Origin: Candidatus Nitrospira allomarina
Lineage (GTDB): Bacteria; Nitrospirota; Nitrospiria; Nitrospirales; UBA8639
Direction: 5' to 3'
Assembly: GCF_032050975.1 (NCBI RefSeq)
Contig: NZ_CP116967.1
Location: forward strand, 3,965,001 to 4,029,000
Length of the DNA: 64,000 nucleotides
Positions 1,687-43,040 of the stretch are shown one piece after another (position 1 is the first letter of the stretch; every line of letters starts with the position of its first letter). The notes beneath the pieces were generated by a model. That model was given only the letters and a program-made list of their open reading frames with translations, was not told the DNA's origin and ran no database searches. Both the position numbers and the translations under genes were made by a program.

Positions 1687-1765
1687 ATTTTCACGGATAG
1701 ACCTTATACGACCTAGATGGTTGAGCCATTTGCCCCTATTTCTCAACCTCTCTTTATGGCGGGGG

Positions 1766-2158
1766 TTAGGACGCTTGCTTGGGAAGGGAAGCCATTTTGG
1801 GTATCAACAGGCGAGGTCGGAGATTTTTCTCTTTCGCAAAGAAGGAAATGGGCAGGGTCACCACCCCCGTCTTCCGTTGTTCATGCATCAACTTCCGCCA
1901 ACACCGCCGGCACAGGTCATGATCTTTCAACGAGACTGCCCGGCCTAATTTACTGGAATGGGGATTTCGTCTAGGAGAAACAAAGACCTTCACCTCACTA
2001 CCACATTTGGCACAACAGATCGCCCCGGCCGCACTGCTTCTTGACGCCCGCTGGGTCTCCAGACCAATGCTTTCAGCCATATGTTTTCGTTTTGGATTCC
2101 ACGCGTGTTCATATGACGTGACGGATTCGGGAATATCCCATGTCAGCATTCGTCTCAT
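1766..2158 (-). CDS. Small zinc-ribbon protein
   Basis: About 130 residues, unknown function. The ATG at 2158 is preceded on the minus strand by an AAGGAGGGGG ribosome binding site, which decides the start over a longer frame. Two CxxC knuckles are visible, CCAKCG and CRRCW, about 30 residues apart, as expected for a zinc ribbon that binds one zinc ion. The intervening stretch is basic (SPRRNPHSSKLGR), so nucleic-acid or protein binding is possible but not shown. It lies downstream of the histidine kinase/response regulator pair on the same strand, separated by 379 bases, so co-transcription is uncertain. Confidence 0.6.
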   Translation of the reverse strand: MRRMLTWDIPESVTSYEHAWNPKRKHMAESIGLETQRASRSSAAGAICCAKCGSEVKVFVSPRRNPHSSKLGRAVSLKDHDLCRRCWRKLMHEQRKTGVVTLPISFFAKEKNLRPRLLIPKMASLPKQAS

Positions 2159-2537
2159 GGCCCCCTCCTTGAAAAGAATGGTCGGTGGATCGGTACCTCC
2201 AATACAGAGCAAGGGATATGCCTGGCACCACACCGGATTTGACAGAGAAGAGAAAAGCGTGTGGAAACAAAAGATAGGAGATTAAAGGACCAGAAGACGG
2301 GGCTCAGGAAGATAGGCAGGATATGCGGTGGACGGGCATATCTTTCCTGTTTGAAGTCATTGGAATATTGACACCTGTGGGAACCTTTGACAGAGAGAAA
2401 GAGGGCGGAAATATTCAACACCCATGAGGAGATTGATCAATAAAAAAGACCAGGGAAAGCCGGAACATTCCACGGATCTACCCATGGCAGACACATCCCC
2501 CCTAATCGGGATGGGTAATCATTTTTACCTGACCGAA
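2159..2537. other. Intergenic with small hairpin
   Basis: No gene supported in about 380 bases. CATCCC at 2494-2499 pairs with GGGATG at 2508-2513, about 25 bases after the response-regulator stop codon on the minus strand. It is not followed by a T tract, so a terminator role is only possible. Confidence 0.35.
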
Positions 2538-2984
2538 TCACACCCTTTCCGGTGCCGATTCATTTAAAATGAGCCAATAAAGCCCAAGGTTTTGAACCGC
2601 TTGAGAAAACTCTTGAAAGTCCACTGGCTTGCGAACATAACTATTGGCTCCAAGTTGATAGCTTTTCACAATGTCCTGTTCTTCCTTGGACGACGTGAGC
2701 ACAACCACCGGGAGATACTTCGTCCGTTCATCAGCTCGTAACCGTCGAAGCACTTCCAGCCCATCAATTTTGGGGAGCTTGAGGTCCAACAAGATAATTT
2801 GAGGCATCTGGCTTAAATCACGACCGGCATGCGCTCCGGTTCCAAATAAATATTCCAACGCTTCCACGCCATCCCGGGCCACCACAACTTCATTTTTTAT
2901 GTTGTTTTTCTTGAGGGCCCGCATCGTCAACTCTTCATCATCAGGATGATCTTCCACTAACAGAATGACTTTGTTGGTCATCAT
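2538..2984 (-). CDS. Response regulator, Rcp1-like single receiver
   Basis: A 148-residue protein consisting of one CheY-like receiver domain. It has the acidic pair at the start (VEDHPDDEE), the phospho-acceptor Asp in [12 protein letters not shown], the T/S of VVVLTSS and the conserved Lys in VRKPVD. The inserted loop between strands 2 and 3 ([15 protein letters not shown]) is typical of Rcp1-type regulators that pair with phytochrome-like kinases. The start at 2984 is set by GGAGGAGGAG just upstream; the next codon is also ATG. The histidine kinase gene ends only 20 bases upstream on the same strand, so the two are very likely co-transcribed partners. With no output domain it probably acts by protein interaction or as a phosphorelay intermediate. 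Confidence 0.85.
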
Positions 2985-3004
2985 CTTCTCCTCCTCCGGT
3001 TGCC

Positions 3005-4747
3005 TTACAACGTAAAATGAAAAGTTGCCCCTTTGCCCACCACTCCTTCTGCCCAAATTTGACCGCCATGCCGTTGAATAATACGATGCACTGTGGCCAG
3101 CCCAACGCCCACTCCAGGAAATTCTGTATAGGCATGAAGCCGTTGGAAGGCGCCAAAGAGTTTATGCGCATAGGTCATATCAAAACCCGCCCCATTGTCG
3201 GAAACAAAGTAGGCTGCCTGCCCTTTGTATTGGCCATAACCGAATTCGATACGGGGATGGGCTTGTTGCTGGGTAAATTTCCACGCGTTGCCGATCAAAT
3301 TTTCTAAAACGGCCCGAAGCAATTGCGGGTCAGCGGTGGCGAATACATTATTGGCCACAATACATTCGACCTGCCGGTCCGGTTCCATTTTTTGAAAATC
3401 TTCAAGAACAGCCAGGGCTACAGCACTCAGATCAAAGGTTTGGGTATGGATTTCGGCTCGGGTCAACCGGGCCAGATTGAGCATGGCATCGATAAGCTTG
3501 GACATCCGTTGACTGGCCGTCCGCACCCTCCGCAAATAATTTCGTCCTAACTCATCAAGTTTTTCATCATAATCTTCCAATACAGCCTGGCTAAACCCAT
3601 CGATCCCCCGCAACGGCGCGCGTAAATCATGGGAGACCGAATAACTAAACGCCTCAAGCTCCTTATTACTCGCCTCGAGTTGGGCCGAGCGCTGGACCAA
3701 CTGGGAATTGAGTTTGCGTATGTCCTCCTCAGCCCGCTTCCGCTCCGCCACTTCCCGAATGAGTTCGGCATTTGAGGCAGCCAACTTCCCCGTTCGCTCC
3801 TGGACTCGCTTTTCCAGATTATCTTTCGCCTTCCGAAGGGTATCTTCGGCCAATAATCGATCATGAATTTCCAATTCCAAATGTTTGTTGGCACTTTGCA
3901 GTGCGCCGGTTCGATCGCGAACCTGCTCTTCCAATTCACTTGCCACCCGGCCAAGCTTTAACACCACTAATCCGAATCCGCCCATCCAAATGACGACCAA
4001 CATCCCCATCAACCCATAAGTCCCTTGCCAACTCATACCCATGATCGTCTCCAGCGAATCAACGGGATACACGACCTCCAACAAGCCGCCCACTTGCCCG
4101 ATCTGCCAATCACGCTTTGGACTGTCAGGATGACTGTTATGACACTCCACGCATTCCTTCTGCATCCAATCGGCCTTCACAAAACGGAGGGATTCACGCC
4201 CCTCGACCTGCTCAAACCGATAAAATGGCTCATCCGTATCAGGATGTTGCGTGAAAAATTCCCACGCCTCTTCCTGAAAGCCATCAATGAGTCCTCCTGA
4301 CTTCTTTTCAGGGTAAAACGGATAGGGGCTTAGTAATGCCAATCGTTCGCCTCTTCGCCCGGCAACCAATCGCTTACCAAGGTCCCGACTGAGTGTCACA
4401 GGGAGAGGAATTTCGCCTTGATGGTCCCGATACTCTGTCGAGGCTTCAATTCCCTGGGCATGAAGGCGTCGAACAATCTCGACGGTGTACCATATCCGCA
4501 TCTCCTTCAGCGCTCTGGTATAGATCTCGGATCCTCGAAAGGCCATGGCTGTTACCATTTGGGTTTTCAATTGGGAAATGTGCAGATAAATCACGATGAG
4601 ACAAAGCCCAAAAAGCACGGTTAACACCAAAATCGTATGCCGATGTAGAAGCTCCATGGCTCCCAGAATTCTGTTCAGACAGGTTCGCCATAGTCCCGAA
4701 CCTGACAACGGCAATTTTTTACGAAGCGTCAACTCAGATACCGACAA
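3005..4747 (-). CDS. Membrane histidine kinase with haem-type CxxCH sensor domain
   Basis: A 580-residue sensor kinase. In order: transmembrane helix about 38-55; a periplasmic domain about 60-240 resembling DUF3365 (Tll0287-like) with C199-V-E-C202-H203, a c-type haem attachment motif; second helix about 243-264; a long coiled coil about 270-365; HisKA with the phospho-acceptor H373 in [10 protein letters not shown]; and a HATPase_c domain ([26 protein letters not shown]). The C-terminal half is of the phytochrome/Rcp1-partner type. Covalent haem suggests redox or gas sensing; that is inference from the motif. The start is TTG at 4747 with AGGA 7-8 bases upstream; an ATG at 4657 would give a shorter N terminus. 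It is followed 20 bases later by its likely partner regulator. Confidence 0.85.
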
Positions 4748-5110: not shown

Positions 5111-7435
5111 TCACACTGGAGCTTGATTTTGTAAGGCGACAGCCATCAAACTTTCTTCCGGCTCTGCTATCTTTTCAGAATCCATATCATCCGCCAGTGT
5201 GGGTTCCAGCTCCTGATCCTCGTCATACGTTTGCCGAACATCCAGAATTTCAATGTCTAATTGAGCTTCAGGGTACAATCGTCGCAAGTCCCATTCCGTA
5301 ATCCATCCACGTACATACTCACGCATCCGGGTACTGGATAATTTTTCTACAGCAGAAACGGGTGGCGGTGTCCAACTATACGCCGATCCATGCAGGGACC
5401 GAAGCCGCTCATATAAGGCATCCACCATTGATTCATAGGGACGAATTAATGGTTCCCCCTCCTGTTCGATAAGCCGGATACCCTGGATCGCCTGTAATGC
5501 TTGCATATGAGTTTCATCCGTCGATTCCTCCTGACACATCTGCTCGATTTTCTGGGAATCCTGTTTTTCTTCCAAGATCACGCTTTGGAAATCATCAGTC
5601 AGAGCGACAATGGCCCCAATAGCCGGACAGGTATCCTCGGCTAATACCCCCATCCACCGTGCCACCTCCTTATAGGACTTGGTCCGTTGTTTAAAAGAAT
5701 ATCGTCCGATGATTTCCGCCTCATCAATAAGCAAGATCCACCCTTTATAGCCAGCCGCCACCATCAAGCGTGAGACAAATCGAAACCGTTGTAAGGCCAA
5801 ATTCTGACTGGAAATTTTATTGAACACATAGGGGTTTTCCGGTGGACACCCCTGAAGATATTTATTGAGTTGGCTATTACTCAACGGGTCTCCCGCCCAA
5901 TACCGGATCATGCGATGACTCAGTTCAGGATCATTAATCATCCGCTCATAGAGATACAGGCTGGCAGCAAACCGGGAATCGCATCCTTGGTCCTTCCGAT
6001 GCACCCAATCAAACAAATCGGCAAAGTGCGGGCTTTGGAAATTCAGTTCACCGGCTATTTCGGTGAGAGCATCACCATGTTTACCGGGAACAATGGCATT
6101 GTTGATGGCTGCACGAAAGAGGGGTACACCATTATACAAGGGTGTCTCCTTACTGATCACAATAGGACTGCAGACAAAATTCTTCTCTAGCGCCATCTGT
6201 TGCAACGCATGAAGAAGATGGGACTTCCCACTCCCAAACCCTCCTTCAATGACGATACCCTTGGTAGGCGAGTCATGAGGAACGTTCGCCTCCATCTGTT
6301 GAAGCAGCCGTCTGAATTTTCCTTCCAGGTCCGTTTGGTGACTTCCCAGTACCTGCACCACATCACGGTTCGGCACTCCGGATCGCAACGCCTCCATGGC
6401 GCGTTGATGTCCAACATCACCATTGGCCATCGCCGGCCGATCAGTGTATTCCTTCTTTCCGGAATCGTGGGCATCTCCGGCCTGTTGAGATCCAAGACGA
6501 ATCAAAGCCCCTAGCGGGTTTTGGTATTGGCGGTCACGGACTTCGTCCCAAATACGTAATTTTAATGCCTCATACCGGTTGAGTCCTCTCCGCTCATCTG
6601 TCAAAAATTCTTGCGGTACCTGGACCACCAACAAGAAACTTTCCAATTCATCTGTCCCATCAATAAACTGACGAAGCATTTCGTAGGCATCTAACGTCGT
6701 TGAAACGCCATAATACAAGCCTTCAGGAGAATCGGGCTTCTTATTGAGCAAACATCGACTTAAGTCCAGGGACACGACTAACCCTGTTTTCCCAACTAAG
6801 CGTAACCAACGGCATAACGAAACAAACATATACCGGGCATTGGTCCGATTAATTTTCTGAAAGATAAGGGCTTCTTTGAGAGCCGAAATCTGACGAATCT
6901 CTCCACCCAGCCATGCCTTGACCGGTTCGGTCATAAAGGGAGCTTCTGAGCCAGAGTCCAATTGCCCCAAACACAATCGGATCATGGCCATACGAAATTC
7001 CTGGCACATCTGCGTATCTCGATAGATGGCCCGCTCTAACCAACTATTTAAATCTCGTCGCAGTAACGGTTCCGCCCGTTCATTCATCCTGGCGACTCCA
7101 GACATGCAGAACTCTTCCTTGTTGTCCGGGATCTGGTACCCATTTTCTTGAAGGAGTCGACGAACAAACTGTGAGGCCAGATCATCCCATGGGATGCGAC
7201 AAGCAATTTGATGGAAAAACTTATCCATCATATGAATTTTGGTGTCTTTGGCATCAACTGAGATGCACGCATAACCCTCCTGCTGAGCCAAGGTAGCCAG
7301 GTGGTTTTGGATGTCGACTCGATCCGAGTCAGAATCGGTTACCACGAACTTGACCGATGAGCCTCCTTGCCCAATAAATCGTTGAAGGTATTCTTGGCGA
7401 AGCGTATGAAACCATTCTTGAGGTCGTAACTCCAT
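5111..7435 (-). CDS. BrxC/BrxD-like (DUF2791-type) tandem P-loop ATPase, paralog 1
   Basis: A 774-residue predicted AAA-like ATPase. The C-terminal module (about 340-630) has the marks of the BrxC/BrxD (DUF2791) family: EALRSGVPNRDV lead-in, Walker A GGFGSGKS at 398-405, VISKETPLY, and Walker B with D571-E572 in WILLIDEAEIIGRYS. The N-terminal module (about 6-310) repeats the layout without Walker A. GGSSVKFVV (24-32) sits where a P-loop would be, LVVSLDL (D224) sits at the Walker B position, and LRQFIDGTDELE..FLLVV..PQEFL matches the sensor strand region of BrxD-like proteins. A conserved SSTRMREYVRGWITEWDL block and an acidic tail end the protein. The start ATG has GAAGGA 8 bases upstream. 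It lies 180 bases downstream of paralog 2. The cellular role is unknown; a DNA-related or defence function is inference from the family. Confidence 0.75.
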   Translation of the reverse strand: MELRPQEWFHTLRQEYLQRFIGQGGSSVKFVVTDSDSDRVDIQNHLATLAQQEGYACISVDAKDTKIHMMDKFFHQIACRIPWDDLASQFVRRLLQENGYQIPDNKEEFCMSGVARMNERAEPLLRRDLNSWLERAIYRDTQMCQEFRMAMIRLCLGQLDSGSEAPFMTEPVKAWLGGEIRQISALKEALIFQKINRTNARYMFVSLCRWLRLVGKTGLVVSLDLSRCLLNKKPDSPEGLYYGVSTTLDAYEMLRQFIDGTDELESFLLVVQVPQEFLTDERRGLNRYEALKLRIWDEVRDRQYQNPLGALIRLGSQQAGDAHDSGKKEYTDRPAMANGDVGHQRAMEALRSGVPNRDVVQVLGSHQTDLEGKFRRLLQQMEANVPHDSPTKGIVIEGGFGSGKSHLLHALQQMALEKNFVCSPIVISKETPLYNGVPLFRAAINNAIVPGKHGDALTEIAGELNFQSPHFADLFDWVHRKDQGCDSRFAASLYLYERMINDPELSHRMIRYWAGDPLSNSQLNKYLQGCPPENPYVFNKISSQNLALQRFRFVSRLMVAAGYKGWILLIDEAEIIGRYSFKQRTKSYKEVARWMGVLAEDTCPAIGAIVALTDDFQSVILEEKQDSQKIEQMCQEESTDETHMQALQAIQGIRLIEQEGEPLIRPYESMVDALYERLRSLHGSAYSWTPPPVSAVEKLSSTRMREYVRGWITEWDLRRLYPEAQLDIEILDVRQTYDEDQELEPTLADDMDSEKIAEPEESLMAVALQNQAPV

Positions 7436-7615
7436 TGCTCGTATCCTTCACAGGTTAGAAAGTCACATTCATACACAGAAAGGTTTTACAGACTACCGAA
7501 AAGGCAGAGACCTATGCTGAAAAAAAATGTTGCCCCGTCTTTGAAAGATTCATTCGAATCTGGCGGTTATATTGTGCAAATTTTCTGATGACAGCCATTT
7601 TGGTCAAGACATAAA

Positions 7616-9892
7616 CTAGTTCGACTCGGAGAGTGCCGGGTGAAGCAGGTCTTCCTCATCCCCTTCTAATTCAGAATCTTCCGAGTAATCTTGTCGAATT
7701 TCTGTTAATTCAATGTCGACTTTTTGTGTTGGATCAAGACGCGTCAAATCCCATTCGGTAATCCAGCCTTTGACATATTCACGCATCCGGGTGCTGGATA
7801 ACCGCTCAATCGTTGGGACCTGAGGGGGTTCCCAGCCATACGCAGCACCATGAATGGCACGAATTTTATGGTAGATTTCTTCTACAAGCTGGTCATAGGG
7901 ACCGACCAATGGTATGCGTTCGCATTCGATGAGCCGCATTCCCTGTTCTGCTTGGCGGGACAGCACCAAATCGGTTTCCGATCCTGATTCTCGCAGTTTT
8001 TCTGGCACTTTTTCCCGATCACCCTTTTCATCCAAAATCGCACTTTGAAAATCATCCGTGAGCGCCATCACGGCCGCCAATCCGGATTTATAGCCGAGAT
8101 CGGCAAAGCTGGAGGCTTCCAGTCGGCCCAGCCACCTGGCTAATTCCGCATAGGACTGGGCTCGTTGCTTAAAGGAATACCTACCAATAATTTCTGCCTC
8201 ATCGATCAGTAAAATCCAACCAGAATATCCCGCCGCAATCATCAGTCGTGAAACAAATTTAAATCGTTGCAACGCCATCTCCATGGGGGAGACTCGTTCA
8301 AATCGATAGGAAATACTCGCATCACAGGCTTTGAGTAATCGCTTGATTTCAGCATCGGTCAACGGATCCCCTGCCCAAAATCGAATGATCCGGTGACGTA
8401 ACTCCGGGTCATTCCCCATGCGTTCGTACAGAAAGACCGAGGCCGCAAAGCGCCCATCAATTTCTCCACCCTGACGATGTACCCATTCATAAAAATTCGC
8501 GTATTGGGGACTCTTAAAATTTAAATCCGCTGCCACCTCGGCCAAGACATCTCCTCGTTTTTCAGGGATATCAGCAGACTCAATGGCAGATCGAAACATC
8601 AATGCGGGACTATACAGAGGCGTTTCCTTACTTATTACGACCTTGCTACACACAAATCTGGATTCCAATGCCATACGCCTTAAGGATTCCAGCAAATGTG
8701 ATTTCCCCGTACCAAATCCTCCTTCAATCAACATGCCTTTTGTTGTCCAACCCTTATGAATGCTGGCTTGAGCGTCCTGCAACATCTGTTGGAATTTGGA
8801 TTTGACCATCGGCTGTGGACATCCCAGCGATTGAACCACTCCCGGGCTCGGGACACCTGCCCTCAAGGATTCAATAACCCGTTGATGCTGCACATCTTCT
8901 TTTCGGTTTCCCACTCTGGCCAGAAGACTGCTCTCGGCAAAGACTGCGGTCTGATTGGTCAGCCTGACCATCGGTGCAAATGGATTTTGACGGGTTTTAT
9001 CCCGGACATCGTCCCAAATTCGAAGCTTTAGGGCTTCATAGCGATTCAGACCCAACCGTTGATCCGAGAGAAAGGCTTGCGAGGTAACGATCACGACCAA
9101 TAGCCCTTCAATTTCATCGCTGCCATCAATGAATTGTCTCAGCATCTCATAGGCATCCATAACCGCAGAGGGCGAATAATTCAGGCAGGTCGCACCGGCT
9201 TCTTTGCCGCCTGTAAAGGCGGAAATATCGATGGTCAAGACCATACCGGGTTTCCCCAACAGGCGGGTCCAATGGGCTAAGGAGACTATGAGGTCACGCG
9301 CATTACTGCGGGTGACCTTTTCAAAAATCAATATTTTTTTGAGGGTAGCCATTTGTTTCAGCTCACCCCGAAGCCACGCCTTAATTGCTGCCGACTCTTT
9401 AGAGGGACTATCCGGCAATTCCAACTGAGCCAAACACAACTGGATCATGGCCAGTCGAAATTCCCGACTCATGTGAAAATCCTGAAACAAGCTCCCTTCC
9501 AACCATGCGTTCACTTCTCGGTGCATCGTGGGTTCATCGCAACCGTTGAGGGAGGCCAGAGAAGACCAACAACACTCCTCCCGCCTTTCAGGGATTTTCC
9601 ATTGATGCTCTCGAAAGAGTTTTTTGACATACTCGAACGCCCAGGCGTCCCATTCAATTTGCCTGGCCATTTCCTTAAACAAGAGATCAATCAGTTGGAC
9701 CTTCGTACAATGAGAATCCGCGTGAATCGTGACAAAGCCTTCCTCCCGTGACAGCGCCTCCACCCCCACGCTCACAGCTTTTGCGTTCTGAGCCTCCTCC
9801 ACAACCGCAAATTTGACGGCCGATCCTCCACGACGGATAAACCCCTGAAGATAGGCAGATTTGAGAACGTTCAACCATTCCTGTGGAGACAT
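7616..9892 (-). CDS. BrxC/BrxD-like (DUF2791-type) tandem P-loop ATPase, paralog 2
   Basis: A 758-residue paralog of the next gene downstream, with the same two-module plan. N-terminal module about 4-310: GGSAVKFAVV at 22-31 in place of a P-loop, and MVLTIDIS as the degenerate Walker B strand. C-terminal module: ESLRAGVPSPGV, Walker A GGFGTGKS at 391-398, VISKETPLYS, and Walker B with D564-E565 in WILLIDEAEIIGRYS. It has the same SSTRMREYVKGWITEWDL block and an acidic C terminus. By eye its N-terminal half differs more from the other two copies than they do from each other (for example NGCDEPTMHREVNAW where both others have NER.EP.LRRD-like text). The start ATG has GAGG at a fitting distance. 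It follows the unrecognised partner gene by about 80 bases, so these are probably one operon. Function unknown. Confidence 0.75.
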   Translation of the reverse strand: MSPQEWLNVLKSAYLQGFIRRGGSAVKFAVVEEAQNAKAVSVGVEALSREEGFVTIHADSHCTKVQLIDLLFKEMARQIEWDAWAFEYVKKLFREHQWKIPERREECCWSSLASLNGCDEPTMHREVNAWLEGSLFQDFHMSREFRLAMIQLCLAQLELPDSPSKESAAIKAWLRGELKQMATLKKILIFEKVTRSNARDLIVSLAHWTRLLGKPGMVLTIDISAFTGGKEAGATCLNYSPSAVMDAYEMLRQFIDGSDEIEGLLVVIVTSQAFLSDQRLGLNRYEALKLRIWDDVRDKTRQNPFAPMVRLTNQTAVFAESSLLARVGNRKEDVQHQRVIESLRAGVPSPGVVQSLGCPQPMVKSKFQQMLQDAQASIHKGWTTKGMLIEGGFGTGKSHLLESLRRMALESRFVCSKVVISKETPLYSPALMFRSAIESADIPEKRGDVLAEVAADLNFKSPQYANFYEWVHRQGGEIDGRFAASVFLYERMGNDPELRHRIIRFWAGDPLTDAEIKRLLKACDASISYRFERVSPMEMALQRFKFVSRLMIAAGYSGWILLIDEAEIIGRYSFKQRAQSYAELARWLGRLEASSFADLGYKSGLAAVMALTDDFQSAILDEKGDREKVPEKLRESGSETDLVLSRQAEQGMRLIECERIPLVGPYDQLVEEIYHKIRAIHGAAYGWEPPQVPTIERLSSTRMREYVKGWITEWDLTRLDPTQKVDIELTEIRQDYSEDSELEGDEEDLLHPALSESN

Positions 9893-9972
9893 AATTTTTC
9901 CCTCAATATCCTGTTAATCTCATTCGTCTTCTCGGTTCACCCTAGGGAAACTTAAATACGGTACCGACCGGT

Positions 9973-10866
9973 TTATCCCGACTGGACAAAGGAAATTCCA
10001 TAATAGGTTTTCTCCCGTCCCCCTTGCGCAATCACGGTTAACGTTTTGTTGGCGTCCCGCACGCCGGTACTCGCATGAAAGTTTGCCCGATGATTGTTTT
10101 TGGTGGAAATGGTTCCACTTTTATCCAATAAATAGACATCCCGGCCAAATTCCTGTCTGGTATATTCATTGGCCTGCCACGGAAGGAGCGTCAAGAGTTG
10201 ATACAGTTCCAAGAGTGGAATCACCGTTCCTTTGCCAATGAGGTGCTTCCCCCGACCCGCCACCACAATGGAATAGGCCGTAAAGACCATCTCCAAAAAC
10301 GTTTGCGGTTTAAATCGAAGGGGTTTATTTTGAACTTCCTTTAATCGTTTGACCAAGACCGAAGGACGAAGCCGGTTTTCCCGCATTCGATCAATGGCAA
10401 CCGCACGTTCTTTATGAAGAATTCGTAATAAGACTGGATAGGAAAATAAATAGCCATCGTGCTCATAGAGGTTGACACCCATCTGCTGGGCAGTGGTAAG
10501 AAGTTCCTGGCGAAACGCTTTGCCCTCCAAATATCCAGCCTCATCAAAATTCAGACGTTCCTGGGTTTTCACAAAATCACATCCCAGGCTCAGCGTCACC
10601 TCTTTGCCTTCCTCCAGCAATTTTCGCAGATTAACCAGATCACCCACTTTCGCTGCATCTTTAATTTTTTTAAATGACGCCATCACCTGCTTCGTGGTTT
10701 TCACTAATCCCCCGGCTTGCTCTTCAATATCAGCCAAGGCCTGCTCCAAATTGACGTTCTTCGTGACAGCCTTTGAAGGTGGGGAAGAATCCGGCAACTC
10801 AAGCACACCCGTTGCCGACCTCGACCCACAGGCTTGTAACGTATTATCAATTCCTTCGGCACTCAT
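9973..10866 (-). CDS. Unrecognised partner of the ATPase pair
   Basis: About 297 residues from the ATG at 10866, which has AGAGGA 13 bases upstream. A longer frame begins at a TTG at 11019 and there is an ATG at 10938, so the start is uncertain. I do not recognise the family. The N-terminal third is helical with coiled-coil character (NLEQALADIEEQAGGLVKTT onward) around a 'VNLRKLLEEGKEV' stretch. The middle has a distinctive SYPVLLRI...AIDRMRENRLRPSVLVKRL segment. The end is strand-rich (RANFHASTGVRD, KTYYGISFV). No signal peptide or membrane helix, so cytoplasmic. It is the first gene of the minus-strand group that continues into the two ATPases, so it is probably a functional partner, for example an adaptor or DNA-binding subunit; that is inference from position only. 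Confidence 0.6.
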   Translation of the reverse strand: MSAEGIDNTLQACGSRSATGVLELPDSSPPSKAVTKNVNLEQALADIEEQAGGLVKTTKQVMASFKKIKDAAKVGDLVNLRKLLEEGKEVTLSLGCDFVKTQERLNFDEAGYLEGKAFRQELLTTAQQMGVNLYEHDGYLFSYPVLLRILHKERAVAIDRMRENRLRPSVLVKRLKEVQNKPLRFKPQTFLEMVFTAYSIVVAGRGKHLIGKGTVIPLLELYQLLTLLPWQANEYTRQEFGRDVYLLDKSGTISTKNNHRANFHASTGVRDANKTLTVIAQGGREKTYYGISFVQSG

Positions 10867-11935: not shown

Positions 11936-12367
11936 ATGTCCCATTCCTATTTCCATTCATTTATTGTCCCTCTTAGCATCTGTAGTGTCTGTATCCTAGC
12001 TTTAGGGTGCTCTGGCCCTCGCCCAATCCTTTATCCCAACGACCATCTTCAACAAGTTGGCCCCGATCGAGCTGAACAGGACATTGAGGAATGCCAACAG
12101 CTTGCAGAAGATTATGTCCCCGAACACGAGGCCTCGACTGTGGCCGGGAATACTGCCGTTGGGGCGGGAGCAGGGGGTGCCGTCGGTGCAGTCAGTGGGG
12201 CCATTCGAGGAGGGGCGGGTATTGGAGCAGCCATAGGTGCCGCAACAGGTGCGACCGTTGGCTTTATTCGTGGATTATTCCAGGCCTCGCAACCCACACC
12301 CGCACACAAATCCTTCGTTAACCGATGTCTTTCGGAACGAGGGTACGATTCGATTGGTTGGGAATAG
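11936..12367 (+). CDS. Glycine-zipper lipoprotein
   Basis: A 143-residue predicted lipoprotein. The ATG at 11936 has AAAGGAGC at ideal distance. The N terminus is a signal sequence ending in a lipobox-like LALGC, so the Cys is likely lipidated and the protein membrane-anchored. The middle is a glycine-zipper segment (GNTAVGAGAGGAVGAVSG and GAGIGAAIGAATGATVG), a pattern found in small outer-membrane or envelope proteins that pack helices. It ends with a short CLSERGYDSIGW segment like other glycine-zipper lipoproteins. Exact function is unknown; an envelope structural or stress role is inferred. It follows the SDR gene closely. Confidence 0.75.
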   Translation: MSHSYFHSFIVPLSICSVCILALGCSGPRPILYPNDHLQQVGPDRAEQDIEECQQLAEDYVPEHEASTVAGNTAVGAGAGGAVGAVSGAIRGGAGIGAAIGAATGATVGFIRGLFQASQPTPAHKSFVNRCLSERGYDSIGWE

Positions 12368-12484
12368 ATCAGAAAAACACATCGAAACCATGAGGCAAGC
12401 ACACAGCGAGACGCCGTTCGTGGTCGTTCCCCTTTTGAGCCAATTTAGTATCGAAACTTGGCTCACATGAGAAGTAAGGAAAGC

Positions 12485-13342
12485 TTACAATGAGGAGCTT
12501 TCTGCACGACGAAGGGCTCGCATCAAAACTGGATCTTGATAAGCCACTTCACTTAAGGCGTCCAATATATGAAGATCTTTTTCCTTAGCGAGAGCTTTAG
12601 CTTTACTAAATTGTCGTGAGTTAAAGCGGGCCACGGATGGCTGGCCATTGATGATCTGACAGGCAAGACCTCCACCATCTTTCAGTGCAAGAGTGCCCCC
12701 ATGATCAAACAAGCTACGAGTCTCATCCACGCTGATCCCATGCAGTTCTGCAAAATCATGGAGCCCACTGGTTTCAATCAATCGTCCATCTGGCATAACA
12801 CATTTTCGCTTAAAATGGGGAGACCAATCTTTTCGGAAATCAATATATTGAATGTCTCCACTACACGCGTTCCCTGATTCAATTTTTGTCAAATCGATCC
12901 CTAAGTTTTTTTGCCGCAACCGATCCTGCAATTCCTGAGGAAGGCCTCGATAAAAAACCCGCTCCATGCCTTCTTCCAACGTCACACCATAACTTTGACG
13001 CATGCGCTCGGCTGCCGCATATTGCTCAAGATCCATGACCCACGTGTGTTTCGGGTCTTTGCCAAGAGGATCAACACGACAGACGAATGCGCCCTTTGTG
13101 ACAAGCGTACCTTCATGCGGATAGAGATATATTCCCCCGTGTTGAAGCACGCCAGTTATAGATTCAAGAGGAATATCATAACTTTCAGACAGGACTCGTG
13201 CATGCATCTCAAAATCTTCCGGTTCCGTCATTCCGCACACCATTACATTTCCAGGGGGATCATAATCCGTATAGTTCTCTAGAATATTATAGAGAACCGG
13301 GGGTTTTTCTTTTTTTAATGGACGTTTTTTCACTCTAAACAT
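12485..13342 (-). CDS. Hypothetical cytoplasmic protein, 285 residues
   Basis: A well-supported gene of unknown function. The ATG at 13342 has AAGGAG about 9 bases upstream on the minus strand. The protein begins with a basic stretch (RVKKRPLKKEK) and has no signal peptide or membrane helix. It seems to contain two similar halves: TEPEDFEMHARVLSESYDIP followed by ITGVLQHGGIYLYPHEGTLV near the start, and LIETSGLHDFAELHGISVD followed by RSLFDHGGTLALKDGGGL near the end. Both halves show 'h.fa....gI....t...l.hGG.l.l..gg', which suggests an internal duplication of a small alpha/beta unit. I do not recognise the family. It is divergent from pyrE. Confidence 0.65.
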   Translation of the reverse strand: MFRVKKRPLKKEKPPVLYNILENYTDYDPPGNVMVCGMTEPEDFEMHARVLSESYDIPLESITGVLQHGGIYLYPHEGTLVTKGAFVCRVDPLGKDPKHTWVMDLEQYAAAERMRQSYGVTLEEGMERVFYRGLPQELQDRLRQKNLGIDLTKIESGNACSGDIQYIDFRKDWSPHFKRKCVMPDGRLIETSGLHDFAELHGISVDETRSLFDHGGTLALKDGGGLACQIINGQPSVARFNSRQFSKAKALAKEKDLHILDALSEVAYQDPVLMRALRRAESSSL

Positions 13343-13558
13343 TCAATACGCTCCTTCACGCTGAGTTTCCTTTTGGCTTTGGACTTCTCCACCCTCAAGG
13401 GAACGACTAGATATTCACGATACCGGTGCTTTCCGATTCACACGAACATTTTCATTTTCAACATCATAATTTTTTCCGCGTCTTGTTGCAGATCTCGAAG
13501 TCGTAATGGTAGAAGGAAATCGCTTATGACTCAACCGTAACACTTTCTTAAATTTCCT

Positions 13559-14134
13559 ATGCCAAAAAATGCCCTCATTCAGGCTTTTCATCAGCTGGAA
13601 GCCTTCAAATGGAATCCGCAAGAGGGCTTCCGCCTCGCCTCAGGAAAAAACAGCCCCTATTATGTTGACTGTCGTATTGTATTGGCTCATCCGCACTCAC
13701 GTCACCTTGTGGCTCAATTAGCCTATCACCTGCTTAAATCCTTAGATTTTACACTCATTGGCGGATTGGAAATCGGAGCAATTCCCCTGGCCACCGGTAT
13801 TTCAGACTATGGGTATAGGGCCGATCCACAGCGGGAATGGCGCACGTTTGTCGTGCGCAAACAACCTAAGGATCATGGATTAGGCAAATTGATTGAAGGC
13901 ACTATTCATCCCGGGGAAACAGCTTTAGTGGTCGACGATGTTTTAACAACAGGCGGATCCTTGATAAAGGCCGCCGAAGCAGCCAGGGCCCAGGGCTTAA
14001 TTGTGACGCATGGATTAGTGGTGGTGGATCGATCTGAAGATGAAGGAAAAAGCAATCTGGCTCAGATGGACATTCAATTGCTGCCTCTTCTCACCCTGGA
14101 AGAATTAAGACAAACGCCTCCCTTCGTCCGGTAA
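13559..14134 (+). CDS. pyrE: Orotate phosphoribosyltransferase
   Basis: A 191-residue enzyme of pyrimidine synthesis that joins orotate to PRPP to give orotidine 5'-phosphate. The PRPP-binding loop VVDDVLTTGGS is clear. The N-terminal FRLASGKNSPYYVDCR matches the 'LxSGxxSpyYvD' segment of bacterial OPRTase, and GGLEIGAIPLA is the substrate-side GG..GA.P loop. The catalytic-loop Lys is likely in the RKQPKDHGLGKLIEG region, the usual 'RKe.K.HG....i.G' motif. Length is typical. It stands alone, not next to other pyr genes, and is cytoplasmic. Confidence 0.93.
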   Translation: MPKNALIQAFHQLEAFKWNPQEGFRLASGKNSPYYVDCRIVLAHPHSRHLVAQLAYHLLKSLDFTLIGGLEIGAIPLATGISDYGYRADPQREWRTFVVRKQPKDHGLGKLIEGTIHPGETALVVDDVLTTGGSLIKAAEAARAQGLIVTHGLVVVDRSEDEGKSNLAQMDIQLLPLLTLEELRQTPPFVR

Positions 14135-14444
14135 GTCCTCGGAATATTTCCCGCCACGATTCAAAACCTTAATCGGTTCTTACAGCCACAACGGATAGGC
14201 ATCCTATTTTAAAAAATTATCCAGTCCAAATTGATCTTTGATGACCATTTCAACTTCTTCACAACCTCAGTCGGTACTTTCCCTATTCCGGATGACTCAC
14301 TTGACCGTCCCTTCTGACCAACCATACAATTTTAAAACAATTATTCAACGATTGTCTGGGCTATCCCTATTCAGAGAGGACAATGCCATCTGCCTTAACT
14401 TTCTCAAGCAAAAAAAGCCATTTCCAATACTACGGAGGACAACC
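14135..14444. other. Intergenic before rhodanese gene
   Basis: About 310 bases. The frame of the rhodanese gene stays open upstream to 14238, but that part lacks a ribosome binding site and protein-like composition, and the true gene starts at a GGAGGACAACC-ATG. No clear promoter boxes. Confidence 0.4.
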
Positions 14445-14864
14445 ATGAAACGCTTATCTTTTTCCTTAACAATCGCTCTTCTTTTTCTTGGATGGGGGAA
14501 CCCCACCATCGTTACTGCTGAGCCCTACCTTTTAACGGTTCAGCAACTCAAAGCAGGACTGGAGAAAGCCTCCCAGCCCAAACAAAAAGGATTTGTGCTC
14601 GTCGATGTTCGGAGTCCAGACGAGCATATGAGTGGCTTCATTCCCGGAACGGATTTCAATATTGATTTTCGGGAAATGCAAGGACGCCACCAAGAGCTCA
14701 ATGCACAACTGGATCAGCACATCGTGGTGTACTGCCAATCTGGACACCGCAGCAATATTGCTGCTGAAACCTTAATGGGATTAGGGTATCAGCATGTTTA
14801 TAATGTGGAAGGAAGTATGAATGCCTGGACCGAAGCGGGGTACCCTATCGAACACCCCAAATAA
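14445..14864 (+). CDS. Periplasmic single-domain rhodanese
   Basis: A 139-residue secreted rhodanese (sulfurtransferase-like). The ATG at 14445 follows GGAGGA and begins a clear signal peptide cleaved near IVTA-EPYLL. The mature part is one rhodanese domain with VLVDVRSPDEHMSGFIPG and the active-site loop VVYCQSGHRSN, where the Cys would carry the persulfide. The loop has the usual length for a sulfurtransferase rather than a phosphatase-type rhodanese. It ends with the usual GYQHVYNVEGSMNAW..AGYP. The in vivo substrate is unknown; a periplasmic sulfur-transfer or redox role is likely. Convergent with the HD-GYP gene. Confidence 0.88.
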   Translation: MKRLSFSLTIALLFLGWGNPTIVTAEPYLLTVQQLKAGLEKASQPKQKGFVLVDVRSPDEHMSGFIPGTDFNIDFREMQGRHQELNAQLDQHIVVYCQSGHRSNIAAETLMGLGYQHVYNVEGSMNAWTEAGYPIEHPK

Positions 14865-14890
14865 TCGAGAACAGCCTGCGGCAAAGATTG

Positions 14891-15769
14891 TTAGATTTCG
14901 GCTACAGTGGAATAGATACCGTTAAAGTCCTGATGCATTTCCCGGAAAGCCTCCAAAAGGTGTGGATCAAAATGTGTCGGTTTTGTTCTGTCACTCCCGT
15001 TTAAAATGATGTCGCATGTTTTCTCATGGGTAAAGGCTGGTTTGTATGGCCTTTGGCTTCGTAAGGCATCGTAAAGGTCGCACAGCATCACAATTCGGCC
15101 TGTGATGGGAATCTGTGTTCCCTTCAGCCCTCGAGGATATCCACTTCCGTCCCAACGTTCATGGTGAGTCAGCGCGACTTCCTTGGCCATCTCTAGCAAG
15201 GGAGACGTCGAGCCATCCAATAAACTCGCTCCCAAAAGGGGATGCTGTTTAATCGATTGCCATTCTTCTTCCGTCAACGGGCCATGCTTTCCAAGAACGG
15301 CATCTGGAACCCCGATTTTCCCCACATCATGCATTGGCGCAACGGCGAATAAACAACGAGCCCGTGGCTGATCCCAGCCAATAGCCAGAGCAAGCGATTG
15401 CGAGTAATGGCTTAACCGTTCAATATGTGCCCCTGTTTCCTCGTCTTTATAGCGTGACGCACGGGCTAAGCGTAGAATAGTATCGGCATAAGCCTGCTCC
15501 AATTCACAATTTTTCCGTTGCTCTGCCTCCAAGGAGAGCTTAAGGTCCCGGGCGTAGACAAGCATTTGGGCATGAGCTTTTTTAAGCAGTTGAGTTTTCT
15601 GGCCTTCCTGCTCCAACATCTGCTTGAGATCTTTGGCATAGGCCATGAGTTGCGAGCGGGCCGCCTGGATTTCCCCTGTGGCAGCTGCTTGGGAAGCTTC
15701 GGCCTTTGAATACGGCATAAATGATGAAAGAGAAATCCCATCTTCCTCCTTGGGTTTATCCTCATGCAT
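14891..15769 (-). CDS. HD-GYP domain protein, likely c-di-GMP phosphodiesterase
   Basis: A 292-residue protein with an N-terminal coiled coil (about 25-95) and a C-terminal HD-GYP domain. The metal-binding H147-D148 sits in MHDVGKIGVPD, and the second motif HHERWDGSGYP at 202-212 holds the GYP residues. HD-GYP proteins hydrolyse cyclic di-GMP and so lower biofilm-promoting signal; activity here is inferred. Its ATG overlaps the stop of the upstream receiver gene by one base (TAATG), so the two are translated together. That pair acts like a split version of the common RpfG-type receiver/HD-GYP fusion. No membrane segment, so cytoplasmic. Confidence 0.88.
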   Translation of the reverse strand: MHEDKPKEEDGISLSSFMPYSKAEASQAAATGEIQAARSQLMAYAKDLKQMLEQEGQKTQLLKKAHAQMLVYARDLKLSLEAEQRKNCELEQAYADTILRLARASRYKDEETGAHIERLSHYSQSLALAIGWDQPRARCLFAVAPMHDVGKIGVPDAVLGKHGPLTEEEWQSIKQHPLLGASLLDGSTSPLLEMAKEVALTHHERWDGSGYPRGLKGTQIPITGRIVMLCDLYDALRSQRPYKPAFTHEKTCDIILNGSDRTKPTHFDPHLLEAFREMHQDFNGIYSTVAEI

Positions 15770-16177: not shown

Positions 16178-17077
16178 TCAGGGAATATCTAATCCATCAC
16201 CGACATATTCATCCTCCTTGATGACATGATCGTCTTGCTGAGACGCAGGTTCAATAGCGTTGTATTGCTCAGAATTCCAATTATGATTTTCGACTTTTCT
16301 GGCCACGGTAATAAAACCGGAATGGGCAACCATTCGGTGATCGGGTCGAACGCTCCGGCCTTTAATATTCCACGTCCGCAACAACGTTTCAAAATTTTGA
16401 ACCATGGTAAAAACTCGGCTCTGCTCCAAAGCCTGTACCGTTTGCATCACCTGCGGCACCGTCGGGACATAACTCAAATACAGACCCCCGGACCGTAATG
16501 CCCGTGCCGCATGCGGAACGACTCGCCAGGGCTCTGGAATATCCAATACCACCCGATCAAACATCCAGGAAGACGCCCCTTCCCCAATCTCGATACCTTC
16601 GTATGCATTTCGAATCTGAAGGAAATGGTTAGGTACCTTTCCCATGAACCGTTCAATGTTTTTCGTGGCCGTGGCCGCAAAATCCTCTCGCATTTCATAG
16701 CTCACCACACACCCACGATCCCCCACTGCACGCAAAAGAGCCATCGTTAATGCCCCAGAGCCCACCCCGGCCTCAAAGACCCTGGCTCCTGGATAAATAT
16801 CCGCCCACATTGGAATGACGGCTAAATCTTTGGGATAAATCACCTGAGCTCCTCGAGGCATTTTCAAGGTATACTCAGCTAGCGTTGGATGAACGGCTAC
16901 CATTAACTTTCCATTGGAAAACTGCACCACTGTCCCATCCGGTTTTCCAATAATGTCATCATGACTAATCCGGTCTCCACTATGCTGAAAGATTTCTCCG
17001 GCTTTAAGAGTGACCGCATAAGGCCGTTCTTTCTTGTCGATTAAATGAACTCGTTCTCCCGATTGAAATGTTTTCAT
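16178..17077 (-). CDS. trmI: tRNA (adenine-N1)-methyltransferase, TrmI/GCD14 family
   Basis: A 299-residue SAM-dependent enzyme expected to methylate N1 of adenine 58 in the T loop of tRNAs. An N-terminal beta domain (about 1-65) is followed by the conserved PRGAQVIYPKDLA link. Then comes the SAM-binding motif FEAGVGSGALTMALL, the acidic strand end VVSYEMREDF, and the catalytic VLDIPEPW motif. The tail after about 270 is acidic and Gln/Asp-rich, longer than in many homologues and probably disordered. Family members in bacteria work as tetramers. It lies upstream of the receiver/HD-GYP pair on the same strand, 34 bases away, so they may share a transcript. Confidence 0.9.
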   Translation of the reverse strand: MKTFQSGERVHLIDKKERPYAVTLKAGEIFQHSGDRISHDDIIGKPDGTVVQFSNGKLMVAVHPTLAEYTLKMPRGAQVIYPKDLAVIPMWADIYPGARVFEAGVGSGALTMALLRAVGDRGCVVSYEMREDFAATATKNIERFMGKVPNHFLQIRNAYEGIEIGEGASSWMFDRVVLDIPEPWRVVPHAARALRSGGLYLSYVPTVPQVMQTVQALEQSRVFTMVQNFETLLRTWNIKGRSVRPDHRMVAHSGFITVARKVENHNWNSEQYNAIEPASQQDDHVIKEDEYVGDGLDIP

Positions 17078-40454: not shown

Positions 40455-43040
40455 TTAGCAAGTCGTTTTAGGGCCATTCGTGAAGGAGCCAGAGGTGTGT
40501 GGAGTCCCGGGGGCAACAAATTCCTGGTTTTCAGATTTTCCCGCCATGGTCGAATCGGTTTCCACCGCAAAACGCCCCCCATGGCTTTTCTCCTGGTTAT
40601 CCCCTTTCGCGTTGGCTTCCTGCACCTCTTCCTGGTCCACACAAGACGGCTTCCATGTCGAAGCTTCTATTTCACACGCTTCCCCGGGATAGAAACGAAG
40701 TGAATCCCAATGTGTCACCCAACTTTTCACATATTTCCGCATACTGGTTCCTGGAATAATTTGGGCCGGATCATTTGCCGCATTTTCCCACATATGCCAC
40801 CCATGCCCCTTCAGATGAAGCGATCGAATCGTTTGATAGGATTCCTGAATAATATCGTTCGGTGGCTGTCCTAGGGGAATACGTTGGGTCTCCAATAAGC
40901 CCATACCTTTCTCCGCTTTGTCGGCGAGTATTCGTTCGGCTTCCGACTGCTTCGTTCGAAGTTTCTCCAACAGTTTGACCTTGTCACCTTTTTTCTCTAA
41001 GACTTCTTCCCGAAAATCATTGGTTAAGGCCAGCACAGCACCCAATCCTGGCAGAGTAGGACCGCCATCTAAATTCATGAGGCGTGCCACTTCGGCATAA
41101 GATTTCGCACGCTGGTTCACCGAATACCGGCCAATCAGTTCGGCTTCATCGATCAGCAAAATCCACCCGGCATATCCCGCGGCTTGCATCAGACGAGCAG
41201 CAAACTGAAAGCGCTGAAGCGCCAATTCTGCAGCCGATATTTTTCCAAACGCATACCGCTCTCCAAATCCGGCTTCTTGCAGGTACTTTTTTAAATCCCC
41301 GACTCCGATGGGGTCTCCCGTCCAAAATCGAGTCATCCGGTGGCCCAATTCCATATCGGAGCTCAATCGTTCATACAGCATCAACGTAGCGGCAAACCTG
41401 GCATCAATCTGACTTTCCGGATTATTCACCCACGTCACAAGATCCTTATAGCGCGGTGCCCAGACATCACATTGACCCGCAATTTCCGAAAACACTTCCC
41501 CTCGTTTGTCAGGAATCACTGCAGCTTCGATCGCAGAATAATACAAACGGACAGGATGATACAGAGGCGTTTCCTTACTGATCACAATCCTACTGCAGAT
41601 GAAATTGGCATCCAGCGCCAGGTTTTGAAGATACTCCAGGATATGCGATTTTCCACTGCCAAACGCGCCCTCGATCACCATACCACGTGGGCACGGACCC
41701 GTAGTAATATTTTGCTGTGTGGCTTCTAATAACCGCCGAAAACGTCCCTCCACCTCGGGCTGAAGACATCCAAGCGTCGTTACCACATGCCGGTTCGGAA
41801 CCCCCGCCCGAAGACCTTCAATAACACGACGGGCTTCTCCATCAGGCACCATTCTCCTCGGCGTGGCGGTGGAAGCAGTATGCTCTTCTTCAGAAACCTG
41901 CTGCTGATGATCCTGAATTCGGACCAACGAGGCCAATGGATTCTGACGGTGTTTCGGACGAACATCATCCCACACTCGCAATTTTAAAGCCTCGTACCGA
42001 TCCACACCACGGCGGGAGTCGGTCAGGAACTCCTGTGGAGCCATGACCACCATCAGCAAGCCTTCCATTTCATCAGCCGAATCAATAAATTGACGAAGCA
42101 ATTCATACAAATCTATGGTGGCTGAAGGCGAAAATGACAGAGAGCCGTCATTGGGCAAGCCATCCTTTTTCATAAGATACCGAGAGATATCGAGCGAAAG
42201 AATGAGGCCTCCCTGTCCCGTTAAACGAAGCCAGCGCGTTAAAGAAGACAGCATGTACCGTGCATTATGACGCGAAATTTTTTGATAGATCAGGGCCTTT
42301 TTAACTCCACCCACCAGTCGAAGGTCTCCACACAACCATTCTTTCACCGCTGAGGCCAAGACACGATCGGCATCGCCCGCATCCAACTGAGCCATACACA
42401 GCCGGATCATCGCCATGCGAAATTCACGGCACAGGCCCGAATCGCCTTCAATCGCTTTTTCCATCCATGTTTGAATATCCCGGCGGAGCATCGGCTCCTT
42501 CCGTTCATTCACCATTGCAACCTGCCGCAACGAGAATTCCTGTCGGTCTGAAGGAATTTGGTGCCCATGCTCTTCGAGTAACCTTTGGAGAAACCGATAA
42601 GCGAGTTCATCCCAATCTATTTGTTTGGCAATTTTCTGAAACAGTCGCTCGATCATGTGGGCTTTTGTGAATCGCGCGTCGACTTTTGCCAAGATATATC
42701 CTTCACGTTTGGCCAGTCCCTCTAATTCTTGTTGGCAGGTTTTTAATCCGTCTTCACCCGTGAACACGGCAAATTTGACTGCTCCACCCCCCTCACGAAC
42801 AAAACTCCCAAGATATTCATGGTGAAGAATTCCCAGCCATTCGCTTAGAGCCAGGTTAAATCGGGGCTCCTCCTCGGAGTGAATATTGTGCTTGGGCGAT
42901 GGTTTCATATCCGACCGATGTTGTTGCACAGATTCCGGCTTCTCTGGACAGGAGTCCGAGAGCAAAGAAAGGGAGGAGGGAAGACCTTCTTCTGTTCTCA
43001 CGGATTGTAAGCGATTTAAGGCCTCAATTAATTTGCTCAT
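40455..43040 (-). CDS. BrxC/BrxD-like (DUF2791-type) tandem P-loop ATPase, paralog 3
   Basis: An 861-residue third member of the family, about 30 kb from the other two. It has an extra N-terminal 60 residues beginning MSKLIEALNRLQ and then Ser/Pro-rich, probably disordered text. The N-terminal module (about 65-375) has GGGAVKFAVF instead of a P-loop and LILSLDISR at the Walker B strand. The C-terminal module has EGLRAGVPNRHV, Walker A GAFGSGKS at 458-465, VISKETPLYH and Walker B with D631-E632 in WILLIDEAELIGRYS. The end has SMRKYVKSWVTHWDS and a longer charged tail. By eye its N-terminal half is closer to paralog 1 than to paralog 2. The ATG has GAAGGAA upstream. It follows the DUF6499-like gene by 111 bases. 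Confidence 0.75.
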   Translation of the reverse strand: MSKLIEALNRLQSVRTEEGLPSSLSLLSDSCPEKPESVQQHRSDMKPSPKHNIHSEEEPRFNLALSEWLGILHHEYLGSFVREGGGAVKFAVFTGEDGLKTCQQELEGLAKREGYILAKVDARFTKAHMIERLFQKIAKQIDWDELAYRFLQRLLEEHGHQIPSDRQEFSLRQVAMVNERKEPMLRRDIQTWMEKAIEGDSGLCREFRMAMIRLCMAQLDAGDADRVLASAVKEWLCGDLRLVGGVKKALIYQKISRHNARYMLSSLTRWLRLTGQGGLILSLDISRYLMKKDGLPNDGSLSFSPSATIDLYELLRQFIDSADEMEGLLMVVMAPQEFLTDSRRGVDRYEALKLRVWDDVRPKHRQNPLASLVRIQDHQQQVSEEEHTASTATPRRMVPDGEARRVIEGLRAGVPNRHVVTTLGCLQPEVEGRFRRLLEATQQNITTGPCPRGMVIEGAFGSGKSHILEYLQNLALDANFICSRIVISKETPLYHPVRLYYSAIEAAVIPDKRGEVFSEIAGQCDVWAPRYKDLVTWVNNPESQIDARFAATLMLYERLSSDMELGHRMTRFWTGDPIGVGDLKKYLQEAGFGERYAFGKISAAELALQRFQFAARLMQAAGYAGWILLIDEAELIGRYSVNQRAKSYAEVARLMNLDGGPTLPGLGAVLALTNDFREEVLEKKGDKVKLLEKLRTKQSEAERILADKAEKGMGLLETQRIPLGQPPNDIIQESYQTIRSLHLKGHGWHMWENAANDPAQIIPGTSMRKYVKSWVTHWDSLRFYPGEACEIEASTWKPSCVDQEEVQEANAKGDNQEKSHGGRFAVETDSTMAGKSENQEFVAPGTPHTSGSFTNGPKTTC

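Follow-up and report, generated by a model that had tools for sequence, protein, structure and literature searches.

The P297 cluster and its paired ATPase modules

We analyzed a 64,000-nucleotide stretch, called the window here, of the complete 4.55-Mb genome of Candidatus Nitrospira allomarina (contig NZ_CP116967.1, positions 3965001-4029000). It contains a cluster of three minus-strand genes encoding a 297-amino-acid (aa) protein, P297, and two large ATPases, A1 and A2. The original prediction, made from the letters alone, had described three minus-strand genes with short gaps, and the open reading frames (ORFs) bear this out, with 80 bp between P297 and A1 and 180 bp between A1 and A2. It had also taken the two ATPases to be paralogues, and they are: A1 and A2 are 50% identical across 744 residues (E value of 1e-249), and both match PF10923 (BrxC_BrxD) far above chance (113 and 112 bits; cut-off, 22.2). 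A third tandem-module paralogue, A3, had not been listed; it lies inside the window, 30 kb from the cluster, and is 45% identical to A1. The genes, modules, and motifs are as follows.

9973-10866, minus strand: P297, partner protein, 297 aa from an ATG (ORF; homologues lie directly 5' of an ATPase module gene)
7616-9892, minus strand: A1, fused tandem ATPase, 758 aa (ORF, PF10923, alignment)
8906-9892, minus strand: A1 module 1, pseudo-ATPase (PF10923 match, alignment)
7619-8905, minus strand: A1 module 2, P-loop ATPase (alignment)
8699-8722, minus strand: A1 Walker A, GGFGTGKS (alignment)
8198-8215, minus strand: A1 Walker B, ILLIDE (alignment)
5111-7435, minus strand: A2, fused tandem ATPase, 774 aa (ORF, PF10923, alignment)
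6428-7435, minus strand: A2 module 1 (alignment)
5114-6427, minus strand: A2 module 2 (alignment)
6221-6244, minus strand: A2 Walker A, GGFGSGKS (alignment)
5720-5737, minus strand: A2 Walker B, ILLIDE (alignment)
40455-43040, minus strand: A3, third tandem-module paralogue, 861 aa (sequence comparison, PF10923, alignment)
41646-41669, minus strand: A3 Walker A (alignment)

PF10923 matches two successive parts of each of A1, A2, and A3, and each ATPase consists of two fused BrxD-like modules. Module 1 has no P-loop: Walker A is gone, and Walker B has kept its Asp but not its Glu. Module 2 of all three proteins is a PF10923-type AAA+ module with both Walker A and Walker B. Beyond what had been noted before, the tandem ATPase arose by gene fusion, and its leading half is a pseudo-ATPase without a P-loop. 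Across all the loci that we collected, Walker A is missing from 96 of 98 module-1 sequences, and a canonical Walker A is found in 90 of 92 module-2 sequences, the other two having a variant that ends in GKS; these counts include near-identical sequences, since only identical cores were removed, and the reduced sets hold 76 and 68 sequences. Only two module-1 sequences retain Walker A, each locus with its own copy, and they belong to G497 and G1266, which branch deepest. This pattern is consistent with the duplication of an active ATPase and the later loss of the P-loop from module 1. A phmmer search with module 2 of locus L086 gave no match. We also considered an arginine finger or composite active site, for which module 1 keeps a G..Y.AL..R motif that module 2 lacks, and we make no such claim, as the alignment is uncertain in that region.

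P297 matched no family above background in Pfam, NCBIfam, PADLOC, or PHROGs. Its frame has an alternative upstream TTG start that would give a protein of 348 aa. Homologues in other phyla are about 260 aa long, and we label the family P260; P297 is 45% identical to the P260 protein of L086. An AlphaFold2 model of P297, with a mean predicted local distance difference test score (pLDDT) of 82.1, shows a hairpin of two helices and a globular region, and the C-terminal domain, the last ~110 residues, was modeled at a pLDDT of 88.8. The two parts map as follows.

10555-10749, minus strand: P297 residues 40 to 104, two-helix hairpin (predicted helices 40-74 and 77-104)
9976-10311, minus strand: P297 residues 186 to 297, predicted winged-helix-like domain with a conserved Y-RQEF-RD-Y stretch (structure model)

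The structures that VIA matched to the whole model are generic helical hairpins. For the C-terminal domain, the VIA-align matches include the winged helices of ORC/Cdc6 (origin recognition complex [ORC]), Cdt1, TFIIE, and a PadR-type regulator, together with frataxin-like folds, with Z scores of at most 6.0. The likeness is suggestive only and may reflect nothing beyond a shared arrangement. As the winged-helix matches are this weak, we treat DNA binding by P297 as a hypothesis. A candidate for the winged-helix DNA-binding domain expected of ORC/Cdc6 ATPases was seen only in this partner protein, through these weak structural matches. A sequence-profile search of the PDB with P297 returned only coiled-coil designs and similar entries.

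Unfused relatives and the history of the cluster

We collected 42 loci outside the fused lineage. P260 is present in 41 of them; the remaining one, L147, holds the latter half of the L082 genome's cluster. In 39 of the 41, a separate module-1 gene comes next after P260 on the same strand, and the two loci without module 1 are L145, which is decayed, and L182, which has a P260 fragment only. In the Nitrospirota, P297 is followed by a tandem ATPase on the same strand in 21/21 loci. The original prediction had proposed a separate, undescribed ATPase system with P297 as its specific partner, and this repeated co-occurrence, the test that it had named, supports it. The loci also lie outside BREX, Pgl, and TerB settings, with only the Actinoplanes locus L088 adjoining a TerB-type system (a complete Shango).

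The genes that follow module 2 were counted in the 29 loci whose sequence continues for 1.5 kb or more beyond its 3' end. An SNF2 helicase is found there in 18 loci and an XPB-like helicase in three; the other eight have no recognized helicase at this position, and among them two have a divergent upstream Ski2-like helicase and one has Shango alongside. In 17 of the 18 SNF2 loci, a ~190-aa gene lies between module 2 and the helicase; its profile showed no relation to P260. Judged by alignment extent, 12 of the 18 SNF2 proteins include an Mrr nuclease domain (PF04471 E value of 2.7e-24 in L086), and the catalytic pattern GG[IV]D...QCK is retained in eight of nine SNF2-Mrr proteins inspected. 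The resulting five-gene cluster of P260, module 1, module 2, the ~190-aa gene, and SNF2 (-Mrr) was seen in L083, L086, L087, L140, and others. In two loci, L103 (445-3677) and L104 (1252-4445), a Ski2-like helicase divergent from an unfused trio is split into two ORFs, at the same point in both genomes.

P297 homologues span Nitrospirota, Thermodesulfobacteriota, Chloroflexota, Actinomycetota, and Pseudomonadota; out of those at hand, 11 were used for profile A1 and 20 for A2. Our close sample consisted of 59 genomes of the window's genus, family, and order. A1-like genes are present in 31 of these, all within the window's family (31/36, versus 0/23 in three other families), and P297 is present in 27, including 18 of the 20 genomes of the genus; the two without it are 82 to 83% complete. 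In the wider phylum sample, 10 of 295 genomes were positive with profile A1. Elsewhere, positives numbered 9/395 in the phylum of the Syntrophobacterales metagenome-assembled genome (MAG), 3/396 in Actinomycetota, and 16/400 in Chloroflexota. No P260 was found in plasmid, phage, or viral-contig collections.

The gene order pyrE, 285-aa gene, lipoprotein, SDR, P297, ATPase, histidine kinase, and response regulator is maintained across genera. All 15 Nitrospirota loci that reach far enough have the Tll0287-type histidine kinase and response regulator downstream of the cluster. We call this pair associated with the P297 cluster and do not imply membership in the system. Its coordinates in the window are as follows.

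3005-4747, minus strand: histidine kinase, Tll0287-like sensor, with a CxxCH motif at residue 199 (c-heme type) (Pfam, synteny)
2538-3056, minus strand: response regulator paired with the Tll0287-type histidine kinase (Pfam, synteny)

The 285-aa gene (12485-13342) has no family assignment, keeps its place in this order, and is under strong constraint (ratio of nonsynonymous to synonymous substitution rates [dN/dS], 0.07). A2 is absent from the single-copy relatives L078 to L080. A3 is close to the P297 cluster in G031 and L108, and in G031 it lies about 6 kb from A1, which indicates that A3 has moved away from the cluster in the window's lineage. A 246-aa gene (43152-43892) located 5' of A3 has a weak PF20109 match under the cut-off; it adjoins A3 in L114, L116, and L117 and did not turn up next to the A3-like genes of L110 to L112. 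Far from the cluster, at 57217-63897, a 2,226-aa cadherin-like repeat protein adjoins a PAS-GGDEF protein. The window gave no Rfam or tRNA match, and promoter and terminator scans of it returned only chance-level results.

The last two genes of the five-gene cluster are missing here. At the window cluster there is no SNF2 (-Mrr) gene 3' of module 2, where the histidine kinase gene lies instead. The only SNF2 gene of the genome is a generic one, 36% identical over the helicase core (residues 163 to 587); its longest readable frame is 961 aa, and the helicase motifs reach nearly to its end, so that a C-terminal nuclease domain would not fit. None of the 59 relatives, the window's own genome among them, gave a match for the ~190-aa gene with a single-sequence query, which could miss diverged copies; as a control, a profile query for it was positive in 8 of 12 distant genomes.

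A tree of 67 module-2 sequences unites the fused Nitrospiraceae copies in a single clade (100/100) that is nested within the five-gene loci and has sub-clades of single-copy, A3, A1, and A2 genes. Its sister group (99/88) consists of unfused loci of the Syntrophobacterales MAG, L086, and others, and these loci carry the SNF2 gene except for L081, whose ~190-aa gene is broken. As the fused clade is nested and its sister loci are unfused and of the SNF2 type, the tree places the fusion, both duplications, and the loss of the helicase gene and of the ~190-aa gene within the Nitrospiraceae. In three other Nitrospiraceae genomes (G032, G238, and G267), the genes are unfused and cluster with those of a Chloroflexota genome, which suggests a separate transfer.

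Selection on the cluster is purifying. P297, A1, and A2 have dN/dS values of 0.050 to 0.086 against one congener and 0.060 to 0.091 against a second (unsaturated dS), within the range of pyrE and GlnRS. Vertical inheritance and strong conservation of the three genes speak against a mobile defense island of the ordinary kind.

A putative ORC/Cdc6-type complex and its alternatives

The reading that we favor, at about an even chance of being right as a whole, is a domesticated ORC/Cdc6-type DNA-bound ATPase complex that was ancestrally a helicase-nuclease loader. P297, A1, and A2, with A3, would form the core of an AAA+ complex of this type. P297 would act as an adaptor, probably binding DNA through its winged-helix domain, and within each ATPase an inactive module with a structural or regulatory part to play would be paired with an active one that binds ATP. 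The module genes of other phyla are separate, and the genes of the complex there are directly followed by that of an SNF2 helicase, often fused to an Mrr nuclease. The unfused complex most likely recruits or loads the SNF2 (-Mrr) protein onto DNA in a restriction-like role, a proposal that we base on the published view of BrxD as a possible helicase loader (PMC12839542). In the ancestor of this Nitrospiraceae lineage, the helicase-nuclease and ~190-aa genes were lost, the modules fused, and the fused gene duplicated twice. The remainder would serve a core function of the chromosome, the ATP-dependent binding or remodeling of DNA, with a possible tie to the neighboring redox-type two-component system. 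A retained core function is suggested by the missing effector taken together with vertical inheritance and strong constraint. The parts and the history of the cluster are well supported; DNA binding, ancestral helicase loading, and a housekeeping rather than an anti-phage role in this genome are what we infer from them. It is doubtful, though worth stating, that this is a bacterial ORC-like machine, a heteromeric complex of a winged-helix subunit with fused inactive/active ATPase pairs, derived from a helicase-nuclease defense system and domesticated in the Nitrospiraceae for chromosome maintenance, for example through the loading of a cellular helicase or the marking of sites on the chromosome.

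Several observations weigh against the domesticated-complex reading. The helicase is not an obligatory partner, since eight of the 29 distant loci have no recognized helicase 3' of module 2. No significant Foldseek match to P297 was found in the PDB (E value over 1) or BFVD, with either the whole model or the domain. Distant relatives also have defense neighbors: strong PADLOC matches adjoin at least 6 of the 27 distant loci scanned, namely, L088 with Shango and a TOTE-type primase gene, L177 with ZacA/ZacB and a HEC-06-like gene, L168 with SoFic, L107 with a Type II restriction enzyme, L142 with an RmrA-like gene, and L144 with a DruE-like gene. This count is a lower bound from a scan of 108 of 175 non-core ORFs in 27 loci (the nearest three on each side, under 1,100 aa), 20 of which we inspected singly, and the mechanical ORF calls include shadow ORFs in GC-rich loci. 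The contrast with the window neighborhood is not clean, since PADLOC, run on the three cluster proteins and 42 other window proteins, also gave nine family matches among the 42, one protein each and untraced to genes. The neighbors of the distant loci make it likely that the ancestral form was defensive, and the genome studied here could still have such a role, served by an effector in trans.

The main alternative is a fixed chromosomal anti-phage locus, without any domestication, in which the ATPases and P297 are sensor and effector or work with an effector encoded elsewhere. We consider it unlikely but a serious contender, as the ancestral partner was a helicase-nuclease and the defense neighbors of relatives point the same way. 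However, P297 is near-universal in the genus and sits in vertical synteny, its family is absent from the phage, plasmid, and viral-contig collections, and the low dN/dS values of the cluster are unlike those of a mobile, fast-turnover defense locus. In the Actinoplanes locus L088 (2185-16759), the complete Shango, the unfused P260 trio, an ATPase gene, and the TOTE-type primase/helicase gene adjoin, and the extra ATPase gene also adjoins the P260 trio in L089. In the Chloroflexota locus L177, HEC-06/Orf5-like and ZacA/ZacB genes (1730-4702 and 11950-15115) flank the five-gene set.

A regulatory module, in which the ATPase complex works with the Tll0287-type kinase and the response regulator after the manner of STAND/ORC-type regulatory ATPases, is improbable. 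The constant downstream position of the two genes favors it, as would the winged-helix-like domain predicted in P297. Against this, a 363-bp gap separates A2 from the histidine kinase gene, and no such kinase was matched in the loci of the unfused relatives, where only unrelated kinases occur (L082 and L140).

Comparison with known systems

The original prediction had set the cluster apart from BREX and TerB-type systems by the partners missing from the window, and this holds. The absence of BREX partners now extends to the whole genome by two markers: PglZ (PF08665) had 0 matches, with a model that was positive in 2 of 14 controls, and PF10923 matched only A1, A2, and A3, so that there is no BrxC. 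Neither a TerB domain nor a helicase is among the Pfam matches of 19 window proteins. The one methyltransferase seen among the proteins scanned is a tRNA methyltransferase (16178-17077).

Type 2 BREX and Pgl share with the cluster the PF10923 ATPase family and a proposed helicase-loader logic; PMC12839542 presents BrxD as an AAA+ ATPase of the ORC-Cdc6 kind, with the BrxHI helicase as what it may load. The window genome differs in having neither PglZ nor BrxC, and its ATPases reach only 98.2 and 71.8 bits where the BrxD equivalog cut-off is 350 bits; the PglZ absence and the BrxD score led us to reject a BREX or Pgl remnant. In Shango, composed of the TerB protein SngA, the ATPase SngB, and the helicase SngC, the likeness is to the unfused relatives, which also combine a BrxD-family ATPase with a helicase, and Shango and the unfused P260 trio adjoin in one locus (L088). 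The P260 loci differ from it in that they have no TerB protein, in that they have two ATPase modules, one of them inactive, and in that the helicase is SNF2-type rather than SngC-type. The SngB model scored 48.0 and 52.4 bits, versus 550.5 for the true SngB of L088. We rejected P297 as a descendant of SngA, to which it has no similarity: the P260/SngA relation had an hhalign probability of 0.1%, and no TerB match was found in P297. A decaying remnant of BREX or Shango, stripped of its partners, is highly improbable: BrxD and SngB have a Pfam family in common with the cluster, but the scores are far too low, the frames are open and under strong purifying selection, and the closest relatives carry P260 and SNF2-Mrr rather than BREX or Shango genes.

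In the unfused relatives, both the Zorya ZorD and the Dpd DpdE models are matched by the SNF2 (-Mrr) protein, whose gene is absent from the window cluster. By eye, L083 and L086 showed neither ZorA nor ZorB, for which no model search was made. Paired Orc/CDC6 ATPases, one of them degenerate, occur with a KAP NTPase in mobile conflict loci according to PMC10853773. The likeness is that one ORC/Cdc6-type ATPase of the pair is intact and the other degenerate; in those pairs, it is Walker B that is gone from the second copy, with Walker A retained, whereas here it is Walker A that is gone from module 1.

The closest comparison is the five-gene cluster itself, which we found neither in PADLOC 2023 nor in the literature searched (open-licence papers). 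P297/P260, module 1, and module 2 are homologous, with identical order and strand in the window version; the window modules are fused and duplicated, and the ~190-aa and SNF2-Mrr genes are absent. The kinds of parts were already known, and what is new to us is their combination, the pseudo-ATPase, and the candidate domesticated derivative. The loss of the P-loop from module 1, with deep relatives that retain it, offers a testable series for the specialization of paired ATPases. The cluster is a likely case of a gene set that loses its nuclease and turns into a conserved core locus, in ecologically important nitrifying bacteria, and its relatives add an uncatalogued ATPase/helicase-nuclease gene set from several bacterial phyla to the BREX/Shango/Zorya neighborhood.

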